Positions 14,291-37,454 of a DNA stretch of 64,000 nt are shown here, one piece after another. The first letter of the stretch is position 1, and each line of letters opens with the position of its first letter. The notes beneath the pieces were generated by a model. That model was not told the origin of the DNA. It did no database searches and worked only from the letters and a program-made list of their open reading frames with translations. The position numbers and the translations under genes are program-made. The stretch is from an uncultured Alphaproteobacteria bacterium (GTDB lineage Bacteria; Pseudomonadota; Alphaproteobacteria; HIMB59; GCA-002718135), in contig CACOPD010000005.1 in the NCBI GenBank assembly GCA_902628835.1, positions 1-64,000 of the forward strand, read 5' to 3'.

Positions 14291-14953
14291 ATGTTTGGAC
14301 TAAAAAGTGCATCTTTATTTGGTGATACCAAGAAACTTGAAAGAGAAATTGATGAATTTGTAGATATTGTCTCTGAAGTAGGTTTAGTATTTAAATCGAT
14401 AGTTCCAACTTATCTTAATCATTCTGCCAACGGTAAATTTGAGGAAATGGTTGAAAAAGTAAAAGATATGGAAAGTAAGGCCGACAAAATTACGAAAGAT
14501 GTTGAGCATACTCTTTATGAAGAAACATTAATCCCAGATGCAAGAAGTGACGTGTTACGACTTCTAGAACACATCGACGAATTAATTGGAATGTACCAAG
14601 GGAATTGTTATCACTTCTCTATTCAAAAACCTAATTTTCCAAAAGAGTTTCACCAAGATTTAATTGAGTTAACAGAGACTGTTGTAAATTGTGTTGAATC
14701 ATTATGTTTAACCGTAAGATCATTTTTTAGAGATATTAAATCTGTTAGAGATAATGCACATAAAGTTACATTTTATGAAAAAGAATCTGATATAAAATTT
14801 AGTTCTCTTGCAAGAAGAATTTTTGATTCTGAATTACCTCTAGATCAAAAAATGCATCTTCGATATTTTGTAGAGAAAATTGATCGTATTTGTGATCAAG
14901 CAGAAGACATAGCTGACGAGGTTCAAATTTACGCTATTAAACGTTCCGTTTAA
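14291..14953 (+). CDS. DUF47 (PhoU-like) phosphate transport regulator
   Basis: The 220-residue, all-helical protein matches the DUF47/PhoU-related family (TIGR00153 type), with a charged N-terminal region, ESKADKITKDVEHTLYEETLIPDARSDVLRLLEHIDEL near residues 58-95 and a C-terminal CDQAEDIADEVQIYAIKR. Such proteins are encoded directly upstream of PiT transporters and are thought to gate them. Here the PiT gene starts 6 bases downstream, giving the standard pair. Confidence 0.92.
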   Translation: MFGLKSASLFGDTKKLEREIDEFVDIVSEVGLVFKSIVPTYLNHSANGKFEEMVEKVKDMESKADKITKDVEHTLYEETLIPDARSDVLRLLEHIDELIGMYQGNCYHFSIQKPNFPKEFHQDLIELTETVVNCVESLCLTVRSFFRDIKSVRDNAHKVTFYEKESDIKFSSLARRIFDSELPLDQKMHLRYFVEKIDRICDQAEDIADEVQIYAIKRSV

Positions 14954-14959
14954 TTTTCA

Positions 14960-16012
14960 ATGGAAATTACAATTCTAATTTTTTTATTTGGCGGTCTTTT
15001 TTTAGGTTGGTCACTTGGCGCCAATGATGCAGCAAATGTTTTTGGAACTGCAGTTGGAACACGAATGGTTAGTTTCACAAGTGCAGCAATAATTTGTAGT
15101 GTCTTTGTTATTCTAGGTGCAATTATTAGTGGCGCTGGAACCACAGAAACTTTAGGTAAGTTAGGTGCTATTAATGCATTGCCTGGTGCTTTTGCAGCAT
15201 GTGTGGCTGCAGGAATATCTGTTTATTTAATGACCAAAGTTGGCTTGCCTGTTTCAACAACGCAAGCGATTGTTGGAGCAATTGTTGGTTGGAATTTATA
15301 CACGGGATCTTCAACTAATTTTCAAGTCTTAATTACTATTTTAGGAACATGGATACTCTGTCCTATCATTGCAGGAGTTATTGCAATGGGTTTATTTACT
15401 TTTACAAAAAGAGTTATACTCAATAGAAAGTTACATATTCTCAGACTTGATGCTTATACAAGAACAGCTTTACTTTTAGCGGGTGCTTTTGGTGCTTATA
15501 GTTTAGGTGCAAACAATATTGCCAATGTAATGGGTGTATTCGTACCTATATCGCCGTTTACTGATGTTACTATTGGAAATTTATTTGTCTTTTCTTCAAA
15601 AGAACAATTATTTCTTCTTGGTGGTTTGGCAATAGCCGTTGGTGTTTTTACTTACTCGAAAAGAGTCATGTTTACCGTTGGTAATGATCTTTTAAAAATG
15701 ACACCTGTGGCAGCATTTATTGTTGTAATATCACATTCTATTGTTTTATTTTTATTTGCATCCCAAGGTATAAGTGCTTTTTTACAATCTATAAATCTTC
15801 CCTCTATACCTTTGGTACCAGTATCAAGTTCCCAAGCTGTCGTCGGCGGCGTAATTGGAATTGGTCTTTTAAAAGGAGGAAAAGAGGTTCAATGGTCAAT
15901 TGCGGGTAGAATTTCTTTGGGTTGGATGACGCTACCTATAATTGCAGCTTTAATTTCTTTAATTGTTCTATTTATTCTAGAAAATATTTTTAATTTAACG
16001 GTCTCTTTTTAA
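14960..16012 (+). CDS. pit: PiT-family inorganic phosphate transporter
   Basis: The 350-residue inner-membrane carrier has both PiT half-repeats: GWSLGANDAANVFGTAVGTR near residue 17 and SLGANNIANVMGVF near 180, each followed by a (G/P)xPVS(T/S)(T/S)QAxVG motif (GLPVSTTQAIVGAIVG near 95; PVSSSQAVVGGVIG near 287). It imports phosphate with a proton or sodium ion. It is cotranscribed with DUF47 and ends in a 4-base overlap with the convergent phosphatase gene. Confidence 0.95.
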   Translation: MEITILIFLFGGLFLGWSLGANDAANVFGTAVGTRMVSFTSAAIICSVFVILGAIISGAGTTETLGKLGAINALPGAFAACVAAGISVYLMTKVGLPVSTTQAIVGAIVGWNLYTGSSTNFQVLITILGTWILCPIIAGVIAMGLFTFTKRVILNRKLHILRLDAYTRTALLLAGAFGAYSLGANNIANVMGVFVPISPFTDVTIGNLFVFSSKEQLFLLGGLAIAVGVFTYSKRVMFTVGNDLLKMTPVAAFIVVISHSIVLFLFASQGISAFLQSINLPSIPLVPVSSSQAVVGGVIGIGLLKGGKEVQWSIAGRISLGWMTLPIIAALISLIVLFILENIFNLTVSF

Positions 16013-16533
16013 TTAACTGCTCGATAAGAAAAAATAAAATCTTCCTGAATTTTAGATTCAATTGCTCCTTTTCTTCTTGATCGTACTAGATCAATAGCTT
16101 CTTGCTTTTCATAATTAAATTCAACAAGTAAGATAGCAGCTATAGTACCAGCTCTTCCTTTACCTCCACGGCAATGTAAAACTATATTTTTTCCATCTAT
16201 CAATTCGTTCTTTAATAAAACTTTTGTTGTTTCCCATTTATATTTAAAATCTTTATCTGGTGCTCCCATGTCATAGATTGGTAAATGATACCAATGTAAC
16301 TTATGTTCATAAATACTTTTGACAAATAAAGTTTTATCACACAATTTTTCAAATTCGCTATCTTCAACAAAAGAAGTAATGGAGCTACAATTATTATCTT
16401 TAAATATTTCTAATTCGTTTGCTAAAATTGTTTCTTCAAATAAACCATTAGAGTTAAGACCTGGGAAGGAAGTTAATATAATTTTGCCTGCAAATGACTT
16501 AGAGTCAATAAAATCATAATTGCTAAATTGCAT
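16009..16533 (-). CDS. Dual-specificity/tyrosine-type protein phosphatase
   Basis: The 174-residue protein has the Cys-dependent phosphatase loop HCRGGKGRAG near residues 120-129 (HCx5R) with the general-acid loop upstream (YDMGAPD near 87-93), resembling CDKN3-like dual-specificity phosphatases. It probably dephosphorylates a protein or small phosphoester. Its ATG follows the phnZ-like stop with no spacer, so the two genes form a coupled pair. A role in phosphonate use is suggested by position only. Confidence 0.82.
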   Translation of the reverse strand: MQFSNYDFIDSKSFAGKIILTSFPGLNSNGLFEETILANELEIFKDNNCSSITSFVEDSEFEKLCDKTLFVKSIYEHKLHWYHLPIYDMGAPDKDFKYKWETTKVLLKNELIDGKNIVLHCRGGKGRAGTIAAILLVEFNYEKQEAIDLVRSRRKGAIESKIQEDFIFSYRAVN

Positions 16534-17109
16534 TTACGCTTGTTTAGCTAAAAAAGACTGTCTTGCTTCTTCTAAATAGGGACGAAAATGTTCAACATCT
16601 GGAGTTTTTTTATCTAGAATTTTTGCTAAATCATCAAATCTTCTAAGCTCTACTGCTTCATCCATAAAAGGTTTGCTTATAAACGCATCTGCTTCTTCTT
16701 TTGTGAAAGGACCACCTTGAACTTTTAATGAAAGTTTTGATGCTTCTGATAGACTATCATAATAACCTTCTTCAACACTTGATAAATATCTTTTTGAGTC
16801 AACATGTGCTCTAATTGGTAGAATAACATCCTCACCAAAATATTTTTTTAAAAAATCAGCACCTAAATTTTCATGATGACCATCTTTCCCTTCATGAATG
16901 GGATCGCCATCCTCATAGATAAGGTGGCCAACATCATGCAGTAATGCTGCAGCAATTGTTGGTCCTGGTAATTTATGTTTTTCAGCAAGTTCAGCACATT
17001 GGAGTGCGTGCTCAAGCTGGGTCACATCTTCATTACCATATTGAATATCAGCACCTTTTGTTTTCAAAAGATCTAAGAGATAATCTACGATATTTTCTTC
17101 CATTCTCAT
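16534..17109 (-). CDS. phnZ: PhnZ-like HD-domain mixed-valent di-iron oxygenase
   Basis: The 191-residue HD protein matches the phosphonate-associated HDIG family. It has His34, the His58-Asp59 pair in LLHDVGH, His79 in HHENLGA and RAHVDSKRYL near 100-109. A Tyr24-x-x-Glu27 pair (YGNE) matches the substrate-gating residues described for PhnZ. PhnZ oxidatively cleaves the C-P bond of (R)-2-amino-1-hydroxyethylphosphonate to glycine and phosphate. The hydroxylase PhnY* that makes this substrate is not in the window. Start may be at either Met of MRMEE. Divergent from phnW. Confidence 0.85.
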   Translation of the reverse strand: MRMEENIVDYLLDLLKTKGADIQYGNEDVTQLEHALQCAELAEKHKLPGPTIAAALLHDVGHLIYEDGDPIHEGKDGHHENLGADFLKKYFGEDVILPIRAHVDSKRYLSSVEEGYYDSLSEASKLSLKVQGGPFTKEEADAFISKPFMDEAVELRRFDDLAKILDKKTPDVEHFRPYLEEARQSFLAKQA

Positions 17110-17197: not shown

Positions 17198-18295
17198 ATG
17201 GATAAAAAATTATTAACCCCTGGTCCTCTCACGACATCGATGTCAACAAAAGAGGCTATGCTTCATGATTGGGGTTCGAGAGATACAAAATTTATTGATC
17301 TCAATGCATCAATTAGAGATTCCCTTGTTAAATTAATAGACGGTGAAGATAAATATCAATGTGTTCCAATGCAGGGAAGTGGAACTTTTGCTGTAGAATC
17401 TATGGTGAGCTCTCTTACTCAAAAAGATTCTAAAATTCTAATTCTGATCAATGGTGCTTACGGACAAAGAATGAAAAAAATGTGCACTTATTTAGGAAGA
17501 GATTTTATTGAATATGAAGTTGCTGAACATGAAGTACATGAAATCAACAAAATTGAAGAGTTAATTGATAGCAACAACTTAACACACGTCTTTGCTGTAT
17601 ATTGTGAAACAACATCGGGTATTTTAAATCCTATTGAAGAAATTGCAAAATTAGTTGAAATGAAAAATTTATCGTTGTTCATCGATGCAATGAGTGCCTT
17701 TGGTGCACTACCCTTAAGTTCTAAAACAACTACTTTTGATGCTGTAGCCGCTTCATCAAATAAATGCTTAGAAGGTGTGCCAGGTGTTGGTTTCATTCTT
17801 GTTAAAAATGAAGTTATTCAAAATGCAAAAGGCAATAGTCATTCACTAAGTCTAGACTTATATGATCAATGGCAAGCAATGGAAAAAAATAAACAATGGC
17901 GATTTACACCTCCAACACATGTATTGGCTGCATTCAATCAAGCTATTGAGGAACATAAACAACAAGGTGGTGTAGAAGGAAGAGGTAAAAGATATAAAAA
18001 AAATTGTGAAATTATTTGTAATGGAATGAAAGAGTTGGGATTTGAGCAACTACTTCCTGATAATTTGCAAGCACCAATTATTATTACGTTTAAACAACCT
18101 AATGATCCTAAATTTAACTTTGAGAAATTTTATAATGCTCTTAGTGAAAAAGATTTTTTAATTTATCCAGGAAAACTAACAGTGGCAGAAACTTTTAGAA
18201 TTGGGTGTATTGGTAATTTAGATGAACAAGACATGATGGATACAATAAAAGCTGTAAAAGAAGTCGTTACTGAATTGGGATTAACATTAAACTAA
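17198..18295 (+). CDS. phnW: 2-aminoethylphosphonate-pyruvate transaminase
   Basis: PhnW moves the amino group of 2-aminoethylphosphonate to pyruvate, giving phosphonoacetaldehyde and alanine. The 365-residue class V aminotransferase begins LLTPGPLTTS and has ETTSGILNPIEE near 144, FIDAMSAFG, SSNKCLEGVPG near 187 with the PLP lysine, and GNSHSLSLDLYDQW. This resembles Salmonella PhnW closely in my recollection. Phosphonoacetaldehyde would then pass to PhnY (30770) and PhnA (32209). It starts a two-gene unit with the cupin and is divergent from phnZ across an 88-base spacer with no clear operator. Confidence 0.93.
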   Translation: MDKKLLTPGPLTTSMSTKEAMLHDWGSRDTKFIDLNASIRDSLVKLIDGEDKYQCVPMQGSGTFAVESMVSSLTQKDSKILILINGAYGQRMKKMCTYLGRDFIEYEVAEHEVHEINKIEELIDSNNLTHVFAVYCETTSGILNPIEEIAKLVEMKNLSLFIDAMSAFGALPLSSKTTTFDAVAASSNKCLEGVPGVGFILVKNEVIQNAKGNSHSLSLDLYDQWQAMEKNKQWRFTPPTHVLAAFNQAIEEHKQQGGVEGRGKRYKKNCEIICNGMKELGFEQLLPDNLQAPIIITFKQPNDPKFNFEKFYNALSEKDFLIYPGKLTVAETFRIGCIGNLDEQDMMDTIKAVKEVVTELGLTLN

Positions 18296-18302
18296 CAAAA
18301 CA

Positions 18303-18935
18303 ATGACAAAAGAAGTTGAAATACCATTAGTTAAAGCAACAAATGAAAATCTTAAAGGATATGGGTATTTAATCGATACTTTTGAAAAAAGTGATATTGA
18401 AATTGTTACCTGGCCAAAACAAGGATGGCGCGACATAGAAGAGGGAACAGGAAATGAAGGTGGAACTACCGAAGGTTCTTTTGATACATGGTGGCAAGGT
18501 GACGTACTTTATGGACAAAATAATGCTGTCCAACATAAGAGCGATTATGAAGTAGATGGAAAATATATACTGGGTTATGCCAATAATCCTGATCAAGAAT
18601 TACAAAAAGATAAATATTCAGATCCAACAAAAATATTTCTATGGCATGCAAATTATCATCCTGATGGAGGTCAGCTTTTTTTTCCTACAGAAAATAAACC
18701 ATTTATTTGTCCTTTAGCTTTACCAACAGACGACATTGAACCAGAACATTTTAAAGCATTTTATTGTGACGGATCAAAAGGTTTATATATTCATCCAAAT
18801 ATTTGGCATGAAGGGGTGTTTCCAGTTTCAGAAAAACAGTCATTTCAAGGAAAACAAGGTAAAGTACATGCAAGAGTTAGCATCGACCTGAAGGAAGAGT
18901 TTAACAAATATATTTACTTTAAGACAAATATTTAA
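18303..18935 (+). CDS. Ureidoglycolate-lyase-like cupin protein
   Basis: The 210-residue protein starts IPLVKATNENLKGYGYLIDT and has FLWHANYHPDGGQLFFP near residues 114-130, FICPLALPTDDIEPEHFKAFYCDG near 135-158 and GLYIHPNIWHEGVFPV near 161-176. The last part recalls the G-x4-H-x4-WH pattern of AllA ureidoglycolate lyase. The His-rich sites suggest metal binding. It starts 7 bases after phnW in the same direction, so I infer a role in aminophosphonate catabolism or in handling its amino/hydroxy intermediates. A genuine ureidoglycolate lyase in purine catabolism is the alternative, but no purine-catabolism gene is nearby. Confidence 0.6.
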   Translation: MTKEVEIPLVKATNENLKGYGYLIDTFEKSDIEIVTWPKQGWRDIEEGTGNEGGTTEGSFDTWWQGDVLYGQNNAVQHKSDYEVDGKYILGYANNPDQELQKDKYSDPTKIFLWHANYHPDGGQLFFPTENKPFICPLALPTDDIEPEHFKAFYCDGSKGLYIHPNIWHEGVFPVSEKQSFQGKQGKVHARVSIDLKEEFNKYIYFKTNI

Positions 18936-27097: not shown

Positions 27098-28210
27098 CTA
27101 ATAAAGTCCCATTGATTTAGCAGAAGAGATGAAGGCTTCTTTATTGCCAATAAAGTTTTTACCTCGTTCCCCTAAAAACGCATCATCTACTATATTATTC
27201 CATTCTTGAACAGGAACTTTTATTTCATTTAAGTTAAGAGGAACCTCTAAAGAACGCATAAATTCACTCAGATTATTTGCAGCATTCTCTAGATTATCGT
27301 TAAAAATTAATTTTAGTCTTTCCTCAGCTACACTATCAATTCCAACCATACTTTTAGTAATCATAGGTAAAGTAAATGAACAAGCGATACCATGCTGAAT
27401 ACCGTAATTGAGTGTAACAGGGTATGATAGATTGTGCGCAATAGCAGTTTTCGTATTGGAAAACGCTAAGCCAGCATGAACACACGCCAATGCAATGTTT
27501 GAGCGTAATTCAACATTTCTTAAATCTTTAGTGAGAAGTGGTAAATTTTCTAATACTAATTTTGATGCTTGTATTGCATGAGAAGCAGAAACTGGGTTTG
27601 CATTAATATTCCAAATACTTTCCATTGAATGGGAGAGAGCATCTAAACCTGTTGAAATGGTCAAACCTAAAGGCTTATCAACCATAATAGATGGGTCAAT
27701 AATTGTTTTTTCTGCATAAAGAGATTTGTGCGCCAAAGATAATTTATTATTTTTTTCTTTATCCCATATTGTGGCCCAACACGTAAGTTCACTTGATGTT
27801 CCTGAAGTTGTAGGTACTGCAATAATCTTGATTGGATTTTCGACTCTTGGGCTTTTCTTATTGCGAACGAAATCAGTTAGATATTCTTGTTTATCTTTAA
27901 ATGCAGCAATTGCTTTAGCTGTGTCTGTAACAGAGCCACCACCTATGGCTAAAATATAATCTACTGATTTATTAATTGAAGAAAATTTATTTTGTAGCTC
28001 TAAAATATCCTTATAATCTGGATTAGGCTGAACATCAGTCATAATGGATAAGGGTGGATTTGAAGAAGATTTTAATTCATCGCTATATTTTTTAAAAATT
28101 TCTTCTGGATGAGTGATTATGATGTAGTTCTTATTTTTAAGAGCATCATGTACTTCTTTAAATCTATTTTCTCCAAAGATAATTTCAACAGGGTTAAAAT
28201 AATTCCACAT
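27098..28210 (-). CDS. Iron-containing (group III) alcohol dehydrogenase
   Basis: The 370-residue protein has the NAD-binding GGGSVTDTAKAIA near residues 91-103, PTTSGTSSELTCWATI near 133-148 and the metal-ligand segments DALSHSMESIW and HNLSYPVTLNYGIQHGIA. Start MWNYFNPVEIIFG is typical. Such enzymes oxidise or reduce small alcohols/aldehydes; a branch reduces phosphonoacetaldehyde to 2-hydroxyethylphosphonate. In this neighbourhood a phosphonate aldehyde or alcohol is a reasonable but unproven substrate. It lies 2 bases before the methyltransferase-like gene and 4 after the MetE-core gene. Confidence 0.75.
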   Translation of the reverse strand: MWNYFNPVEIIFGENRFKEVHDALKNKNYIIITHPEEIFKKYSDELKSSSNPPLSIMTDVQPNPDYKDILELQNKFSSINKSVDYILAIGGGSVTDTAKAIAAFKDKQEYLTDFVRNKKSPRVENPIKIIAVPTTSGTSSELTCWATIWDKEKNNKLSLAHKSLYAEKTIIDPSIMVDKPLGLTISTGLDALSHSMESIWNINANPVSASHAIQASKLVLENLPLLTKDLRNVELRSNIALACVHAGLAFSNTKTAIAHNLSYPVTLNYGIQHGIACSFTLPMITKSMVGIDSVAEERLKLIFNDNLENAANNLSEFMRSLEVPLNLNEIKVPVQEWNNIVDDAFLGERGKNFIGNKEAFISSAKSMGLY

Positions 28211-30769: not shown

Positions 30770-32212
30770 TTACCAAGGTAGTGAGAAAGTTTTTACATTA
30801 GTAAAACTTTTCATTGCTTCAATAACACCCTCTTTATAACCAAGACCTGAATCTTTAATTCCTCCAAAAGGAGACATTTCAATTCTGTAACCTGGCACCT
30901 CCCAAATATTTACAGTTCCAACATTTAAACCTTGAATATATTTTTTTGCTCGCATGAAGTTATTTGTACAAACACCAGATGATAATCCGAATGCTGTTGA
31001 GTTAGATATTTTCATTACAGCTTCATCATCATTTGGCACACGAATGATTGGGATAACTGGACCAAATGTTTCTTCTAAAACTAATTCACTTTTAGGATCA
31101 ACATTATCAACTACTATTGGGGGTAACAAAGCACCTTTTCTTCCAGGGTGATATAAAATTTTTGCACCGTCTTCTTCAGCCATAGAAACTCTTTTATCAA
31201 AAAGTTCAGCAGCTTCAGCATTAACAACGGTACCTAAATCTGTTTCCATATTCATAGGATCACCAAATTTAATTTTCTTAGCACGCTCGAGAGCCATTTC
31301 AACAAATTGATCTGCAATAGATTCTTGAACCAATATTCTTTTAACAGCTGTACAACGTTGACCAGAGTTTTTCGTTGCTCCAGTAACTGCTAGCTCAACA
31401 GCTTTTTTAAGATCATCACCATCTAAGTCATTTAAAACAATTAATGGATCATTACCACCAAGCTCTAGAACTGTTCTTTTGTATCCAGCTTGTTCAGCAA
31501 TTAATTTTCCTACACCCACACTGCCTGTAAAAGTAATTAGATCAATGTTTGGATTCTTGATCATTTCAGATCCGATATCTTGAGGCCATCCAGTTACAAC
31601 TGAAAACATTTCTGGTGGCAGACCTGCTTCATATAAAACATCAGCGAGTACCATTGCTGTTAAAGGTGTTAATTCTGTCTGCTTACATACTGTACAATTA
31701 TTAGTTGCAATTGAAGGTGCAATTTTATGCGCTACCATATTCAAAGGATGATTAAATGGAGTGATTGCTGAGATTGCCGTTAAGGGTTCTCTTATGGTAA
31801 ATATTTTTCTCGCTTTTCCATGTGGAGTTAAATCACAAGAAAATATTTCTCCATCATCAAGAATACAAAGTTGAGCTGTTAAAGAAAAGACATCAAAAGC
31901 TCTTCCTACTTCGTATAGAGAATCTTGTTTAGAGATGCCAAGTTCTAAAGTAATAATATCAGAAATTTCTTCTTTTCTTTTAACAAGTACTTCTGCAGCA
32001 GTTTGAAGAATTTTTTGTCTCTCATATCTTGTAAGTTTAGGTTGGTAATTTGCAGCAATATCTAAAGCCTTTCTTGCATGCTCTGCAGTACCGGCTGGAA
32101 CCGTTCCGATTACTTCACCTGTAAAAGGGTACTCAACATTTATTGTTTTATCTGAAGTAACTTTTTCTCCAGCTATACGCATTGCTTCATTAATCATTTT
32201 TTTGTGCATCAT
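30770..32212 (-). CDS. phnY: Phosphonoacetaldehyde dehydrogenase (NAD-dependent)
   Basis: The 480-residue aldehyde dehydrogenase has the NAD-fold motif [14 protein letters not shown], catalytic Glu in LELGGNDP near 250 and catalytic Cys in [12 protein letters not shown] near 287. Overlap by 4 bases with phnA identifies it as the PhnY of the Sinorhizobium-type PhnWAY pathway, which oxidises phosphonoacetaldehyde to phosphonoacetate. Start may be at MMHKKM or at the second/third Met. Confidence in this substrate rests mainly on the coupling with phnA and the presence of phnW in the island. Confidence 0.88.
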
Positions 32213-33450
32213 AAGGCTCCGTTAATTGCATAGTAAAATGCATCATAGTTATATAATTGTTTGCTAGTATCTAAATTTTGCAATTTTAAATTTGATATGA
32301 ATGGCACTTCTCTTTCATGAAGTCCGCCATGAGAACGTAAAGGTTCATTTAATCCAGAAAGATTGTGTTTATCTTCTGATGAACCAATAGTCATAAATTC
32401 TGAAGACATACATATAATATCGCCCATTCTATCTGGAGGTAAATTATAAGTAGAGCATCCTTCATCTTTTGTTAAAACAACTTCTATATCTTTTATTTCT
32501 TTAATAGCATTTACAACTGAATCTACCTTGCTCTTGTCTTCTAAATAAATTGTTGCAAAAGAACCAAGTGAACCATGGTGAACGACATATGGATCTGTAA
32601 TTGGTAGAATAACTTTAGCCATGTTTGGTTCAAATTTTTTATCTAAATAATCTTGTAAAAATATTGCATTAGGTGAACCATCTTCTTTTGATTTTGGTTT
32701 CATACCGTGATCTGCTGTGATGATTATAGAAACATTCTCCTTATTTAAAAGACCAATATATTTATCAAACATTGCATAAAATTTATTTGCTGTTTCGTTT
32801 CCCGGTGCATATTTGTGTTGAATATAATCCGTAGTCGATAAATACATGATATTTGGTTTGAACTCTTCAAGAAGCTTTACACCTGCAGCCATTACAAATT
32901 CAGAAAGTCCTTCAGAATATACTTCTGGCACTGGCATCCCCAACCAATCGTTTACATTATCTATACCATTGAGATCTTTTGTTGCTTGATCAGATTTTTC
33001 AGCAGAAAAACAAATAGCTCTCTCATCATCAAAACTTAATCCGTTTCCTAAAAGTGTTCTCAACTTGTCTTTTGCAGTAACAAGAGCAATTTTAGAACCA
33101 GAATTGTAAAATTTTTCAAAAATAGTTGGTGCTCGCATATATTTTGGATCATTCATCATTACTTCTTCACCAGTCTCAGGTGTATAAAAGAAGTTTCCGC
33201 ATATACCGTGTACAGAACTTGGCTGCCCAGTTACAATGGAAATATTATTAGGATTTGTAAAACTTGGAATAGCGCTGTGAACTAGTAGGTTTTCACCACT
33301 TGCAATTAGTTTATCAAGATTTGGTGTAAGATTTGATTTTGATGCTTCTTCGAGATACTCTTTTTGACTACCATCAAGGCATATAACAATAGCAGTTTTT
33401 GAGAAAGAGCTTGGATATTCTCTATTATTAATTTCTAAATTTTCGGACAC
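32209..33450 (-). CDS. phnA: Phosphonoacetate hydrolase
   Basis: PhnA splits phosphonoacetate into acetate and phosphate. The 413-residue alkaline-phosphatase-superfamily enzyme shows the metal and nucleophile sites in order: VICLDGSQ (Asp), [15 protein letters not shown] (Thr nucleophile), [12 protein letters not shown] (Asp, His), ITADHGM (Asp-His) and GLHEREVPF (His). It begins the phnA-phnY operon and is divergent from the ABC ATPase at 33616. With phnW (17198) it completes aminoethylphosphonate mineralisation without the hydrolase PhnX. Confidence 0.92.
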
Positions 33451-36605: not shown

Positions 36606-37454
36606 ATGACATTGTCAGTAAATTTTATTTTTATCTTAATTCTTGTTTCTGCTCTATGTCATGCAGTTTGGAGTGCTATAATAAAATCAAGCAAGAACCC
36701 TTTATCGTTAATGGGTATAACGTCTGTCTTGGAAGTTACTATTTTTTTACCTTTAACATTTACTGTTCCATTTCCAACTGTAGAGGTTTGGTATTTTTTA
36801 ATAGCAACCGTAATCATTCATGTCTTCTACAGACTAAATGTTATCTACTCATATAGGTACGGTGATCTCTCTTACATATATCCAATTTCTAGAGGAAGTT
36901 CATGTTTGTTTGTAGCGATCATTAGTATTTTATTTTTAAGTTCTGATATTAGTGTTGCTGGTTTCGTAGGAATATTAATTGTTTGTATTGGATTATTTTT
37001 AATTTCTTATTCTAAAAATTTATCTTTTAACTTCAGAGGTTTTGCTCTCGCTATATCAACGGCTATTCTAATTACTGCTTATACTTTAGTTGACGGTGTT
37101 GGGGTTAGACTTTCTGAAAATGGTTTTTCCTATATTTACTGGCTCTTCACACTTAATGGAATACCTTTACTAATTATTGGTTTGATCTCTAAAGATGGTT
37201 TACGAAAAAGAGAAACGTACACTTTTAGATCCGGGATTGCTGCTGGTGTATTTGCAACAAGTAGTTACGCAATTGTTGTTTGGAGTATGCAATTTATAGA
37301 AATAGCTTATGTTTCTAGTATTAGAGAAATAAGCATTGTGTTTGCTGCAATTATTGGAATGCTTTTCTTATTTGAGAAGAATGCAAAATCTAGAATAATA
37401 CCTTCTATTTTAATAGTTAGTGGTATTTCAGTTGTTTATTTTCAAATTCTTTAA
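36606..37454 (+). CDS. EamA/DMT-family transporter
   Basis: The 282-residue membrane protein has ten hydrophobic segments in two five-helix halves, the EamA arrangement (HAVWSAIIKSSKNPLS; SYIYPISRGSSCLFVAI near 95). DMT exporters or importers carry metabolites such as amino acids; substrate unknown. It starts 14 bases after the permease in the same direction, so it may be cotranscribed with the phosphonate-type importer. Confidence 0.85.
   Translation: MTLSVNFIFILILVSALCHAVWSAIIKSSKNPLSLMGITSVLEVTIFLPLTFTVPFPTVEVWYFLIATVIIHVFYRLNVIYSYRYGDLSYIYPISRGSSCLFVAIISILFLSSDISVAGFVGILIVCIGLFLISYSKNLSFNFRGFALAISTAILITAYTLVDGVGVRLSENGFSYIYWLFTLNGIPLLIIGLISKDGLRKRETYTFRSGIAAGVFATSSYAIVVWSMQFIEIAYVSSIREISIVFAAIIGMLFLFEKNAKSRIIPSILIVSGISVVYFQIL

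Follow-up and report, generated by a model that had tools for sequence, protein, structure and literature searches.

What does a PhnZ-type oxygenase act on where no PhnY* hydroxylase is encoded beside it, and why is its gene followed, stop codon to start codon, by that of a phosphatase? The locus that raises these questions lies in a stretch of 64,000 nucleotides (hereafter the window) from an alphaproteobacterium of the family GCA-002718135, order HIMB59, and consists of two predicted genes:

16534..17109, reverse strand: PhnZ/TmpB-type HD-domain diiron oxygenase, 191 aa (assigned from profiles, PDB matches, residues and a structure model)
16009..16533, reverse strand: PTP-fold, dual-specificity-type phosphatase, 174 aa, P-loop HCRGGKGR (assigned from Pfam, motif and fold matches)

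The TAA stop of the HD gene directly adjoins the ATG of the phosphatase gene downstream of it, as the first-pass annotation had read it; its phrase ‘fused by operon’ is apt for the adjacency of the two genes, the proteins themselves being separate.

The HD protein narrowly misses the cut-off of the NCBIfam Phn-HD model TIGR03276 (201.4 against 214.6 bits) and scores 157 bits with the TmpB and 153 bits with the GmPhnZ1 model, both below the cut-off of 300. Among PDB sequences it matches TmpB (E 2e-32; 39% identity) and PhnZ (E 6e-29), and its structure model (pLDDT 91) superposes on both (Z 26.8, rmsd 2.1 and 178 aligned for TmpB; Z 25.7, rmsd 1.9 and 178 aligned for PhnZ), with the next fold, MIOX, reaching only Z 11.2. 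The diiron ligands H34, H58-D59, H79, H102 and D159, which follow the H...HD...H...H...D motif reported for PhnZ/TmpB oxygenases (PMC8177086), are identical in 91/91 alignment rows; the YxxE lid (here YGNE) keeps Y24 in all 91 rows and E27 in 85. The ligands and the Tyr-x-x-Glu pair picked out at first pass are therefore in place, and the C–P-cleaving chemistry predicted for the HD step from homology is well founded.

The HD proteins of the family fall into a single clade (12 rows, support 100/99), separate from the TmpB-like and Burkholderiales clades, in a tree that places the PDB PhnZ unsurely, on a long branch, and so does not settle which group is sister to them. Twenty sites are private to this clade (one residue in at least 90% of its members and in less than 15% of sequences outside), and three of them border on active-site positions in the sequence, namely N26 within the lid, A101 preceding H102 and F158 preceding D159, each found in 0–1% of the sequences outside. 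Because they lie so close to the ligands and the lid, these residues may alter the substrate, and an earlier suggestion that the pair acts on a different phosphonate may thus hold some truth.

For the phosphatase, the Pfam scores (PTP-SAK, 48.7 bits; Tc-R-P, 34), the intact HCx5R loop at residues 120–127, the conserved general acid Asp88 and the fold (KAP: Z 19.3, rmsd 2.7, 167 aligned; PRL-1: Z 18.8, rmsd 1.9, 147 aligned; SsoPTP: Z 17.9, rmsd 2.3, 148 aligned) all agree with a predicted enzyme of the PTP fold and dual-specificity type. On two alphaproteobacterial plasmids (L137, L181), an ADP-ribosylglycohydrolase is fused to or sits beside a homologue of this phosphatase; no phosphonate link emerged from these cases.

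The surroundings of the pair bear directly on what the HD protein may act on:

14291..14953, forward strand: DUF47 PhoU-like partner of PiT (PF01865, 79 bits)
14960..16012, forward strand: PiT-type phosphate permease (PHO4, 207.6 bits), convergent with the phosphatase gene and overlapping it by 4 bases
17198..18295, forward strand: PhnW, 2-AEP transaminase (PRK13479, 512 bits, cut-off 296; TIGR02326, 458 bits, cut-off 400.8), divergent from the HD gene
18303..18935, forward strand: ureidoglycolate-lyase-like (AllA-like) protein after phnW (PF04115, 42 bits)
27098..28210, reverse strand: phosphonate-associated Fe alcohol dehydrogenase-like protein (TIGR03405, the PsrA model, 364 bits, below the cut-off of 423.7)
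30770..32212, reverse strand: PhnY, phosphonoacetaldehyde dehydrogenase (TIGR03250, 797 bits, cut-off 635.65)
32209..33450, reverse strand: PhnA, phosphonoacetate hydrolase (TIGR02335, 468.5 bits, cut-off 407.55)
36606..37454, forward strand: phosphonate-associated EamA membrane protein-like (TIGR03340, 142 bits, below the cut-off of 288)

The full phnWAY route is thus encoded in the window, with phnW, phnY and phnA all above curated cut-offs. As first noted, no PhnY* is encoded there: the window holds neither a PhyH protein (E<=0.001) nor a TmpA-type TauD protein (E<=1e-10). That absence is real, but the first-pass annotation overlooked phnW, which diverges from the HD gene, together with phnY and phnA, and in such a context the lack of PhnY* is largely unremarkable. 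PhnW is unlikely to serve biosynthesis, since PEP mutase has no match in the genome at E<=0.001. PbfA handles (R)-1-hydroxy-2-aminoethylphosphonate (R-HAEP) elsewhere; the four class-III aminotransferases found in this genome (84% complete) include no pbfA, the best reaching 217 bits against a cut-off of 525. A search of the same genome for PhnS2 gave no match at E<=1e-60, and a second HD protein (G000:C4:55088) was set aside because it adjoins genes that read, by annotation, as carnitine-type. The AllA-like gene also stands behind phnW in those family loci where that flank was covered. A promoter and terminator scan of the window stayed at chance level (9 promoter-like hits against 7.5 expected; 0 terminators).

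By annotation reading, the window also holds SET-domain, LpxH-like and glycosyltransferase genes, and relatives carry PstS-, PhoR- and GlpF-like genes near the locus. This setting resembles the phosphate island reported for order HIMB59, where PiT is described as typical of family GCA002718135 (PMC10734472).

A PhnZ homologue in a phnWAY setting has precedent. In the cluster counts presented by Zangelmi (2021; PMC8154272), phnZ occurs in 24 of 75 phnWAY clusters, never together with pbfA, and phnY*Z clusters number 7; phnZ within phnWAY clusters is read there as a side branch for ready-made R-HAEP, a compound described as not properly processed by PhnW–PhnX. These counts and this mishandling make an accessory R-HAEP branch the economical reading of the present locus as well, and, of the options first listed for it, uptake of a ready-made substrate fits best. 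We therefore think it probable that the pair forms an accessory hydroxy-aminophosphonate branch of the phnWAY island, with the phosphatase as a functionally coupled partner. Under this reading, 2-AEP itself would pass from PhnW to PhnY to PhnA, and the HD protein would be an accessory C–P-cleaving diiron oxygenase of the island. Its substrate would be an aminophosphonate that is already alpha-hydroxylated, so that no PhnY* is needed; it would most likely be R-HAEP or a close derivative, would enter the cell along with AEP without being properly processed by PhnW, and would yield phosphate and glycine (or an analogue). The phosphatase, in turn, would most likely take a phosphate ester off the HD substrate in some small, strongly anionic form or, alternatively, act on a dead-end phosphorylated side product.

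How firmly the two genes belong together was surveyed in 110 genomes of the family (the window's own included), mostly incomplete, with HD counts that include partial matches at contig edges and in split frames and exclude weak second HD matches of up to 27.9 bits. HD was found in 94, the phosphatase in 95 and PhnW in 92, and all 94 HD-bearing genomes have the phosphatase. The two genes are adjacent on the same strand, phosphatase downstream, in 84 of the 94 (stop and start abutting in 62), and the phosphatase is thus anything but generally unlinked in relatives. In a further eight genomes they lie 4.1–5.0 kb apart on the same strand; at the seven of these loci that were examined, from diverged family members, the gap contains genes of a 2-AEP-type ABC importer, all three of which score above cut-off at L041 (PhnS2, 403 bits; PhnT2, 494 bits; PhnU2, 769 bits). 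In the last two (G001 and G063), HD and phosphatase are on separate contigs, the phosphatase close to a contig end. The one genome with the phosphatase alone (G035) has a contig that stops 62 bases past it, in the direction in which HD would be expected.

Fifteen of the 110 genomes have neither gene. Two of these, G002 and G103, retain PhnW, the AllA-like gene, importer genes and an FAD oxidase (G002 also phnA/phnY), so the pair appears to be missing as a unit, although neither genome, at about 91–92% completeness, proves its absence. Fisher's p for HD/phosphatase co-occurrence (1e-17) is inflated by linkage and common ancestry; linked genes co-occur trivially, and the independent weight therefore falls on the 10 non-adjacent cases and the 2 co-absences. 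Another family member, G108, in which none of HD, phosphatase and PhnW was detected, encodes a TmpA-type dioxygenase near a contig end (L144 5436–6587; 490 bits against a cut-off of 400).

Outside the family, the coupling dissolves. In the alphaproteobacterial sample, none of 19 non-family genomes having both genes, compared by eye, has them linked, which argues that the coupling is lineage-specific. Among 77 non-family HD loci, a phosphatase homologue lies within the stretch at two: at Comamonas L091, next to a C–P lyase/phnCDE operon, only 19 nt separate it from HD, with the two genes on opposite strands, which is no more than a hint of an HD–phosphatase link outside the family, and at L080 it is 4.7 kb away. 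In another alphaproteobacterial family (G481/L163), 2.3 kb separate a phosphatase homologue from phnS2; among 12 genomes with both, compared by eye, no other has them linked. The homologue there (L163 3977–5426) overlaps a LysR gene, and an agmatinase-like gene and phnS2/phnT2 run divergently from it.

The same 77 loci show what usually accompanies HD elsewhere: a PhyH neighbour in 7, a TauD neighbour in 16 (some in one open frame with HD) and a phnY aldehyde dehydrogenase within 200 nt in 9 (e.g. Rhodospirillaceae L064), none of these nine with a PhyH or TauD neighbour. HD genes also occur within C–P lyase/phnCDE operons in plasmid examples. At L075, L086, L102 and L107 (Kitasatospora), a TauD-type hydroxylase and a PhnZ-like HD protein share a single open frame, resembling the fungal PhoF fusion but in bacteria.

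The phosphatase could be regulatory, which counts against the reading preferred above, or tied to the adjoining PiT permease, merely hitch-hiking with the HD gene. PiT lies in the stretch at 18 of 20 family loci, the other two (L037, L050) being cut by contig ends. Homologues of the phosphatase are also found in a phosphate-analogue setting: with the window protein as query, 64 records matched, and in five of the eight plasmid neighbourhoods opened (L176, L177, L178, L180, L182) the homologue, about 26–30% identical, is housed in an arsenic operon. At L176 and L178 it lies directly 5′ of the ArsJ-associated GAPDH and ArsJ, and we know of no role assigned to such homologues. At L040, L043 and L044, however, other genes separate the phosphatase from PiT while HD is still adjacent, and G002 and G103 are without HD and phosphatase alike. 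On balance, we regard a regulatory or PiT-tied phosphatase as improbable.

We also consider unlikely a two-step route in which the phosphatase would strip the phosphate ester off an imported phospho-hydroxyphosphonate and the HD protein would then split the exposed alpha-hydroxyphosphonate. Beyond the strict pairing of the two genes, it draws on the P-loop lysine (GKGR), which is found in 9/9 aligned family phosphatases, in 3/3 of L166–L168 and in L091, the sole other HD-adjacent homologue, and in 0/19 readable class homologues (L146–L165, excluding L159, matched elsewhere in its sequence). A similar C(K/R)xGKGR loop occurs in PTEN and VSP, enzymes of polyanionic substrates, and Ci-VSP and PTEN are further fold matches of the phosphatase (Z about 15). 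The closest fold matches, KAP and PRL, are nevertheless protein phosphatases, and no natural phospho-hydroxyphosphonate is known to us. A bolder version, in which the two enzymes make up a new route and the phosphatase replaces PhnY* altogether, unmasking a phospho-conjugated alpha-hydroxyphosphonate for cleavage by an HD protein with an altered pocket, strikes us as less likely again; if true, such conjugates would be a nutrient class so far unrecognised in seawater.

A hydroxylase might, finally, be encoded elsewhere, a 2-oxoglutarate oxygenase acting as PhnY* or TmpA and feeding the HD protein from an unlinked gene. The genome search suggested at first pass does return six PhyH and two TauD-type proteins, all outside the window, none of which reaches a PhnY* or TmpA cut-off. 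On the methylphosphonate hydroxylase model (cut-off 500), none of these PhyH proteins scores above 26.9 bits, whereas five PhyH genes neighbouring HD elsewhere score 132–358 bits. For one TauD protein (G000:C2:150208-151233), TmpA is the best-scoring NCBIfam model (318 bits against a cut-off of 400; 269 for gamma-butyrobetaine dioxygenase), but its gene sits, by annotation reading, amid dehydrogenases and an ABC transporter of sugar type; we regard it as a distant TmpA-like protein that falls short of a convincing PhnY* but may still be a candidate. The other has gamma-butyrobetaine dioxygenase as its best model. Nor do related strains keep phnY* next to the pair: a PhyH or TauD gene was labelled in the stretch of 0/26 family loci, the labels there and at the 77 other loci coming from custom profiles, under which an unlabelled locus is no proof of absence. 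An unlinked hydroxylase is accordingly very unlikely in our estimation.

For marine surveys, the accessory branch has a practical side. Reported counts put phnZ in anything between <1% and roughly 20% of surface bacteria (PMC10574752), and phnZ has been termed the dominant 2-AEP strategy, its partnership with PhnY* being assumed (PMC9381506); for one AEGEAN169 clade, the hydrolytic 2-AEP pathway is given for >85% in an account whose relevant passages leave phnZ unmentioned (PMC11366302). Where an oligotrophic marine family carries a phnZ-like gene almost universally and no PhnY* with it, surveys could miscount that gene as ‘2-AEP by PhnZ’, and the phosphatase offers a concrete handle on the real substrate of HD.

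Set against known systems, the HD protein shares fold, ligands and YxxE with PhnY*–PhnZ (2-AEP) and GmPhnY*–GmPhnZ (methylphosphonate), but has no linked hydroxylase and stands with phnWAY instead. It is likewise close to the TmpB of TmpA–TmpB (trimethyl-AEP) in sequence and modelled structure; TmpB-like genes, however, come with a TauD neighbour or fusion, and the window protein has neither and falls outside their clade. The phosphatase is homologous to the CDKN3/PTP-SAK-type bacterial phosphatases of ars operons, although those are listed with ACR3, ArsH and ArsJ and without PhnZ, and one literature collection yielded no paper joining PhnZ with a dual-specificity phosphatase, PhnZ and aminoethylphosphonate with a tyrosine phosphatase, or a phosphonate operon with a dual-specificity phosphatase. 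The nearest counterpart is the phnWAY-accessory PhnZ of the clusters tabulated in PMC8154272, which the window matches in having PhnW, PhnY, PhnA and a PhnZ homologue without PhnY* or PbfA. By this comparison, the HD gene would be an ordinary accessory phnZ, and what sets the window apart is an HD protein in a clade of its own and, directly after its gene, a phosphatase partner that appears to be lineage-specific and is strictly kept.
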